DNA of 64,000 bases. Origin: Candidatus Gastranaerophilales bacterium. GTDB taxonomy: Bacteria > Cyanobacteriota > Vampirovibrionia > Gastranaerophilales > Gastranaerophilaceae. The stretch is taken from the NCBI GenBank assembly GCA_944323685.1, contig CALUTJ010000008.1:1-64000 (forward strand), given 5' to 3'. A program made the position numbers and the translations under genes. A model generated the notes under the pieces. That model saw only the letters and a list, made by a program, of their open reading frames with translations. It was not told where the DNA came from and made no database searches. Below, piece after piece: positions 2,087-2,956 of the stretch. Each line of letters starts with the position of its first letter. Within the stretch, counting starts at the first letter, position 1.

Positions 2087-2132
2087 CTTTTTATGTCCTT
2101 TATGTAATAACTAATTCTTTTTTATTTTTTGT

Positions 2133-2155
2133 GTTGGGCTGAAAGCCCAACCTAC
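2133..2155. repeat. Short palindromic element, second copy
   Basis: GTTGGGCT and AGCCCAAC are perfect 8-bp arms around GAA, followed by CTAC as in the copy at 1943. It lies just upstream of the adhesin start and just after the stop codon of the minus-strand gene ending at 2168, so on the minus strand it could act as a hairpin between the two genes. Confidence 0.7.
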
Positions 2156-2239
2156 GGTGCTAATTCTTTATTTGTACCGCGTAAGCGGTGTGCGGCTCTG
2201 CCCTAGTTCACTATTAAAAGAGCAATGTGTATTGGCAAT

Positions 2240-2335
2240 ATTATAGTGCAGTCGTGAAGCCATTTTGCACGTTTCGCCACAGCTCAACGGCAAAAGAAGG
2301 CAAACCCGACCGCTTGCGCGGTGAATATTGCAGTT
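2240..2335 (+). repeat. Diverged relative of the 179-bp interspersed element
   Basis: The words GTGAAGCCATTTT, TTC-CCACAG, TCA and AAAAGAAGGCAAA occur in the same order and nearly the same spacing as in the five full copies elsewhere, with scattered substitutions. The first hairpin of the full element is absent here. It lies inside the 3' part of the G-tract gene's frame. Confidence 0.6.
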
Positions 2336-2623
2336 TATCTTGTTATTATTTCCTTCTTCTAAAAGTTCTTTTGCAGTTTGCGAGGTGTGTTCAGCTCCTG
2401 AACCAAGTTCAGGATGACAGTAAGATCCTTCGGGTTTCACCCTCAGTATGACGTCACGCAAATTTCTCAGGATAACATTCGGGCTTTGTACACACTCCGT
2501 GCACTCAGCTTTACACTCCTCAAAATCCGCAATGATGACAGCTGAATCTTGCGCAGGCTCAAGTGATGCACTAAATTGTGCATCGGCACAGTCTGCTAAA
2601 TCATTGATTTTATACGGTTCATA

Positions 2624-2634
2624 CCCCCCCCCCC
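2624..2634. repeat. Homopolymeric C11/G11 tract
   Basis: Eleven consecutive C on the plus strand in an otherwise AT-rich region. G/C tracts of this length are classic slipped-strand mispairing sites. It lies between codons 22 and 26 of the minus-strand gene starting at 2699 and sets whether that gene is read through. Confidence 0.9.
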
Positions 2635-2910
2635 GAGACTCTTAAAGCCTTGTGAGACAAGGGTTTTGATTCTTTTTTGTTATTAAAGTTTCCTTTCATT
2701 TTCAACATCCTGTGTATATACCACCTATATACTAAGTACCCAATTTTTTGAATTTATAACACTTTTGACTCATTTTATTAAGAAATTGTTACAAACTTGC
2801 CTTGCTAAAATCGACTGCAAGGCATATGTGCCAGAGGTTTTCAGGATTTTTAAAATTGTAGGATTTTAGGCGTTGTTTGTTGAGGATACTATTATTTTTT
2901 ACACACAAAA

Positions 2911-2920
2911 ATGCTATAAT
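2911..2920 (+). promoter_or_regulatory. Extended -10 promoter of glgA
   Basis: TGC-TATAAT (2912-2920) is a perfect -10 hexamer with an extended TGn element, 37 bases before the chosen ATG. No good -35 is visible, which is normal for extended -10 promoters. The same TGCTAnAAT word precedes ahcY, smpB, the homocitrate-synthase-family gene and the PC4-like gene. Confidence 0.65.
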
Positions 2921-2956
2921 TGTTATACAAAAAATATAAGTTACAGAGGGTTTATC

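Follow-up and report, generated by a model that had tools for sequence, protein, structure and literature searches.

What does a run of eleven G residues do next to a surface protein gene in a Gastranaerophilales gut bacterium, and to which gene does it belong? The Gastranaerophilales are an animal-gut lineage known almost only from metagenomes, and the 64-kb stretch of DNA analysed here (the window) carries the tract close to one contig end. The original prediction took the tract for a contingency locus that turns a short gene on or off next to an adhesin. We are fairly confident, from comparison of paralogs and relatives, that G11 is a contingency tract for slipped-strand phase variation, and that it serves a family of Pmp-like autotransporter adhesins. 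The short open reading frame (ORF) is best read from these alignments as the 5' leader of this multicopy family in the Gastranaerophilales.

The tract and its leader in the window

The tract is C11 on the plus strand at 2624-2634 and hence G11 on the minus strand, on which the leader and the adhesin are encoded. It is far longer than composition predicts: the remaining G or C runs across the 64-kb window are at most 5 long, and a first-order Markov model expects 0.0013 runs of at least 11 in the window. Genome-wide, the same model expects 0.25 runs of at least 10, compared with about 8 found. The leader starts at ATG 2699(-), preceded at a spacing of 8 nt by the Shine-Dalgarno sequence AGGA (2711-2708), and runs through 21 codons (MKGNFNNKKESKPLSHKALRVS, 2635..2699(-)) into the tract; this KPLS-type leader recurs in relatives. 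A start, a Shine-Dalgarno sequence and about 22 codons before the tract had been predicted, and all are present. The predicted span of 2168-2708 stands at its 2168 end, which is the stop codon TAA, and shifts at the other, since 2708 is a second in-frame ATG that overlaps the Shine-Dalgarno sequence, and the start with the 8-nt spacing is 2699.

Adding or removing G units at this position opens or closes the leader frame. Read from ATG 2699, the assembled G11 is an OFF length that yields 26 aa and meets a TGA stop at 2619..2621(-), and G12 yields 34 aa; G10 and G13 open the frame to 176 and 177 aa, respectively, as had been proposed for these lengths. The remainder of the leader ORF (2168..2623(-)) is open at n = 1 mod 3 and terminates at TAA 2170-2168(-). 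It includes a module (..GSGAEHTSQTAKELLEEGNNNKINCNIHRASGR.., 2302..2409(-)) with 95-98% identity to three paralog leaders, followed by a piece of a dispersed palindromic repeat (2254..2304(-)) that is 84% identical to >20 genomic copies. The repeat itself (L036-L049) is roughly 200 bp long, and the piece inside the leader ORF is a diverged one. Constraint on the leader peptide is mild. A stand-alone gene family for the 176-aa product was considered and rejected, as searches of Pfam and NCBIfam gave no match above cut-off for the leader ORF product and repeats make up the end of the leader.

Upstream of the leader, the block TTGGGTACTTAGTATATAGGTGG (2721..2743(-)) is common to the paralogs in an alignment of upstream regions, and a diverged version of it (TGGGAATTA..TATAG) occurs in relatives with both tract types described below. 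This block is probably the promoter region of the leader, a role assigned from the alignment because a sigma-70 consensus scan found no good site there. Downstream, 81 nt separate the leader stop from the adhesin start at 2086(-). This interval contains a hairpin, GTTGGGC-TTTCA-GCCCAAC (2133..2151(-)), and the adhesin Shine-Dalgarno sequence AAGGA (2096..2100(-)), which lies in a start context identical in 10 genomic places and, in the window copy, is not sequestered in the predicted hairpin. A scan of the window against Rfam gave no structured-RNA match.

The surface protein expected beside the tract is real. The adhesin (2086-2(-)) extends over 695 aa and remains open at the contig edge, and it contains a signal peptide, 13 GGA[ILV] motifs and 15 FxxN motifs; the Chlamydia PMP repeat PF02415 matches it with an E value of 1.2e-6, above the gathering cut-off. 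The barrel is absent from this contig, and full-length paralogs end in a barrel-like C-terminal domain, with 14 barrel-bearing copies in the same genome. The barrel of the relative L111 matches the autotransporter beta-domain PF03797 at 4e-11 and is 75% identical to that of the paralog L065. The own-genome barrels score below the Pfam cut-off for PF03797 and have no sequence match among solved structures; hence, the autotransporter assignment is made through homology to the L111 barrel. The PMP middle domain PF07548 had no match in the adhesins scanned, in a scan insensitive enough to miss PF02415 in two full-length relatives. The family is best termed Pmp-like rather than assigned as chlamydial Pmp.

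Copies and relatives of the leader

The first 190 bases of the window unit recur at four further places in the genome with 93-94% identity. Their tracts differ in length from the G11 of the window, with G10 in L064 and L065, G7 in L066 and G9 in L067, the last of which is a relic with a changed start codon and an extra base. Three of the four intact leaders of the window type in this genome are ON with an open frame. A second type (L068, L069, L071, and L072) carries C10 or C11 on the adhesin-coding strand before adhesin genes. There are ten occurrences of the adhesin start context CATAAAGGACATAAAAARATG in the genome: six have a tract leader, contig ends truncate two, one belongs to the relic L067, and the last, L297 (G000 C13, near 71.0-71.4 kb), is a naturally tract-less copy. 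The leader of L297 is of the C-tract type but has ordinary sequence in place of the homopolymer, and it can be read without interruption in the frame predicted to be open in its C-tract relatives.

In congeneric relatives, the tract is part of the adhesin's reading frame and separates the start codon from the signal peptide. The leader start and about 20-36 codons come first, followed by the tract, more of the leader, the signal peptide, and the passenger, and the ON copy L111 (G10) is open for 950 codons from start to stop. Since the tract ORF and the adhesin form one frame in relatives, the short ORF of the window is the adhesin leader, split off by the stop at 2170-2168 and the restart at 2086, and the description of it as a short gene next to the adhesin has to be given up. 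The locus appears to have no conserved chromosomal place; at glgA, the neighbor in the window, neither a tract nor an adhesin was found in relatives with a readable glgA upstream region.

Tract lengths here are taken from assemblies, and short-read MAGs may miscall them. Among 40 family tracts with at least 55 open codons downstream, lengths range from 7 to 13, and 10 are ON and 30 OFF, a split that agrees with an ON share of one third (p = 0.32). Twenty-seven congeneric tracts, 9-13 long, are followed by at least 200 open codons in one frame that leads into the signal peptide and passenger, and 4 of these are ON. The OFF adhesins retain hundreds of open codons, up to about 1000, which favors switching over decay. 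The genomes G006 and G016 depart from this picture: their 11 adhesin loci (L113-L120, L141-L145) need n = 2 mod 3 and none is assembled ON, which is not what simple switching with one length in three ON would lead one to expect. Tract class and adhesin go together: of the 14 congeneric genomes that carry a barrel of at least 75% identity, 10 have tracts of this class, and the 9 genomes that lack such a barrel have none (Fisher p = 0.0009). The lone tracts of genomes lacking the barrel stand in other contexts; L138, for example, is a pyruvyl-transferase-like gene with a poly-C tract.

These comparisons bear out the contingency locus by inference, as lengths vary among near-identical paralogs and relatives, the tract class accompanies a single adhesin family, and the frames of OFF genes remain open. 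Relatives have tracts of lengths other than 11 and keep the downstream frame open, so the outcome that would speak against the original prediction is absent.

A probable frame switch and competing readings

Replication slippage, as length differences suggest, would add or remove Gs in the tract in vivo, and the resulting length would decide the fate of a ribosome that initiates at the conserved leader ATG. At ON lengths, n = 1 mod 3 here, it would remain in the open frame, and at OFF lengths, such as the assembled G11, it would meet a stop within a few codons. Among relatives whose assemblies extend far enough, most have a predicted open frame that continues through the signal peptide into the adhesin, and in such fused loci the switch would directly make or abolish the surface protein. 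Tract lengths that differ among paralogs and relatives are expected under slipped-strand phase variation, and slippage with frame-dependent expression is the best-supported model.

For the window copy, the weak step is the link from leader frame to adhesin, because the adhesin has its own Shine-Dalgarno sequence that is not sequestered in the predicted hairpin. The ON frame would end 81 nt before that start; if the copy is still switched, coupling or polarity on the shared transcript would have to be responsible, with about 530 nt of leader left untranslated in the OFF state. The chances that this copy is still gated by its leader frame appear about evenly balanced. Alternatively, and with a probability somewhat under one half, the window tract may be an uncoupled relic, with translation of the adhesin beginning at its own start regardless of the leader frame, so that only the fused copies L071 and L072 would be truly switched. 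The conservation of the adhesin Shine-Dalgarno sequence and ATG in 10 genomic places, the 81-nt gap after the leader stop and the exposed Shine-Dalgarno sequence all point in that direction, as do a leader end composed of dispersed repeats, a weakly constrained leader peptide, and the occurrence of one tract of 7 and one relic among the paralogs. Against it, the frame has been kept open in those three of four intact own-genome leaders of the window type that are ON. In addition, the interval between leader and adhesin has no evident promoter of its own, and the transcript is therefore probably shared.

The remaining readings concern the tract itself. We think it quite unlikely that G11 is an assembly or sequencing error for a true allele of G10 that is fixed ON. 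Two paralogs do read exactly G10, short-read assemblies are error-prone at long G runs, and the contig breaks inside the adjacent repeated gene; however, lengths run from 7 to 13 across loci and genomes with otherwise clean flanks, and a miscall at one site does not explain the family pattern. An action through altered promoter spacing instead of the reading frame has a very low probability in our assessment. Several adhesin loci do have TATGAA or TATAAA after the tract, and in a sister genus a tract stands directly before TATAAT upstream of flagellin genes, but many fused adhesins (e.g., L113 and L118) have CGTTGAAAGCC after the tract in place of a -10-like box, the sole evident start with a Shine-Dalgarno sequence precedes the tract, and no promoter-like site was called at the tract in the window. 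Least probable of all is transcriptional slippage at the G tract that yields mixed frames at a constant DNA length: such slippage could take place on a run of about 10 identical bases within a coding leader, and many loci are OFF by their DNA sequence yet intact, but the DNA tract length itself differs between near-identical paralogs.

Known systems and tracts at other genes

The combination of Pmp-like repeats, an autotransporter barrel, and poly-G tracts corresponds, by analogy, to the pattern of the Chlamydia PmpG group (PMC6740158, PMC4488443), in which paralogous autotransporter adhesins with GGA[ILV]/FxxN repeats likewise carry poly-G/poly-C tracts of variable length with frameshifts, and OFF genes are intact. 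For PmpG, the fact that OFF genes are not decaying has been taken as an argument for switching (PMC6740158). In contrast to that group, the present family belongs to a different phylum, PF07548 is unmatched, the window leader and adhesin are separate ORFs, and both G and C orientations occur. The tract also lies in the leader before the signal peptide, instead of about 1300 nt from the gene end as in PmpG. NalP and MspA of Neisseria meningitidis (PMC3723659) are likewise set ON or OFF by a homopolymeric tract in an autotransporter coding sequence; they are single genes rather than members of a large paralog family. Poly-G/C tracts of at least 7 are the main contingency repeats of Campylobacter jejuni (PMC4965091); unlike those loci, nearly all tracts of the present genome belong to a single adhesin family.

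This mechanism is a classical one, and its pairing with Pmp-like autotransporters is already known from Chlamydia; what appears to be new is the lineage. A full-text literature search for Gastranaerophilales and phase variation, in an incomplete collection, returned no paper, and related searches listed none on the subject. If our reading is right, a gut lineage related to cyanobacteria diversifies its surface by stochastic switching as Neisseria, Campylobacter, and Chlamydia do. Several adhesins switching independently in one genome would give many possible surface states, with a bearing on commensal persistence in the gut and on encounters with host immunity or phages.

On the G strand, G-type and C-type loci have AAAACCCTTG in common about 23 nt before the tract, with a mean registered identity of 0.46 compared with at most 0.38 in circular shifts, and the upstream TGGGAATTA block is common to some loci of both types. 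The module therefore appears in both orientations relative to the adhesin. It may be, although we consider this unlikely, that the poly-G belongs to a module of about 23 nt (AAAACCCTTG, with TC-Gn-TA at its end) that is portable and has reached various surface genes in either orientation, serving as a frame switch in adhesin leaders with a G or C tract and as a promoter-spacer switch before the flagellin genes of the sister genus. A flanking inverted repeat, AAGGGTTTT, is clear in a sister genus and is not generally enriched. A cassette flanked by inverted repeats across the order was considered and rejected, since 12 matches stood against 4 in a reversed control and most of the convincing matches came from a single genus.

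Outside the genus, at a distance of 77 nt upstream of flagellin genes, runs of 9, 11, 12, and 13 G are immediately followed by TATAAT, at otherwise constant spacing (L158, L192, L210, L347, and L348); these loci were found by a pattern that fixes CCTTG and TC, so that their shared flanks are partly selected for. L192 (G13) and L210 (G9) are apparently orthologous flagellin loci. This arrangement suggests promoter-spacer phase variation. L110 has a G12 tract around 2843(+) in a flagellin, after its N-terminal helical region (PF00669, 7.8e-39); the frame is open at n = 2 mod 3, and the gene is hence OFF as assembled.

Other tracts lie in genes of different kinds. L117 has a G11 inside a DNA methylase gene (2413-2922(-), PF01555) and a second G11 577 bp upstream, in an ORF weakly resembling the EcoRI methylase, an arrangement that is phasevarion-like. 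In the relative L148, three poly-G tracts lie in glycosyltransferase genes. The own-genome L070 carries its tract in a gene unrelated to the adhesins, with an AlgX-like domain; L070, L125, and L128 are one homologous membrane-protein gene from three species, with C10, C11, and C11 at the same site, all in open frame. Near-identical leaders in one other Gastranaerophilales genome (L162, L197, and L221) have G14, G9, and G11.
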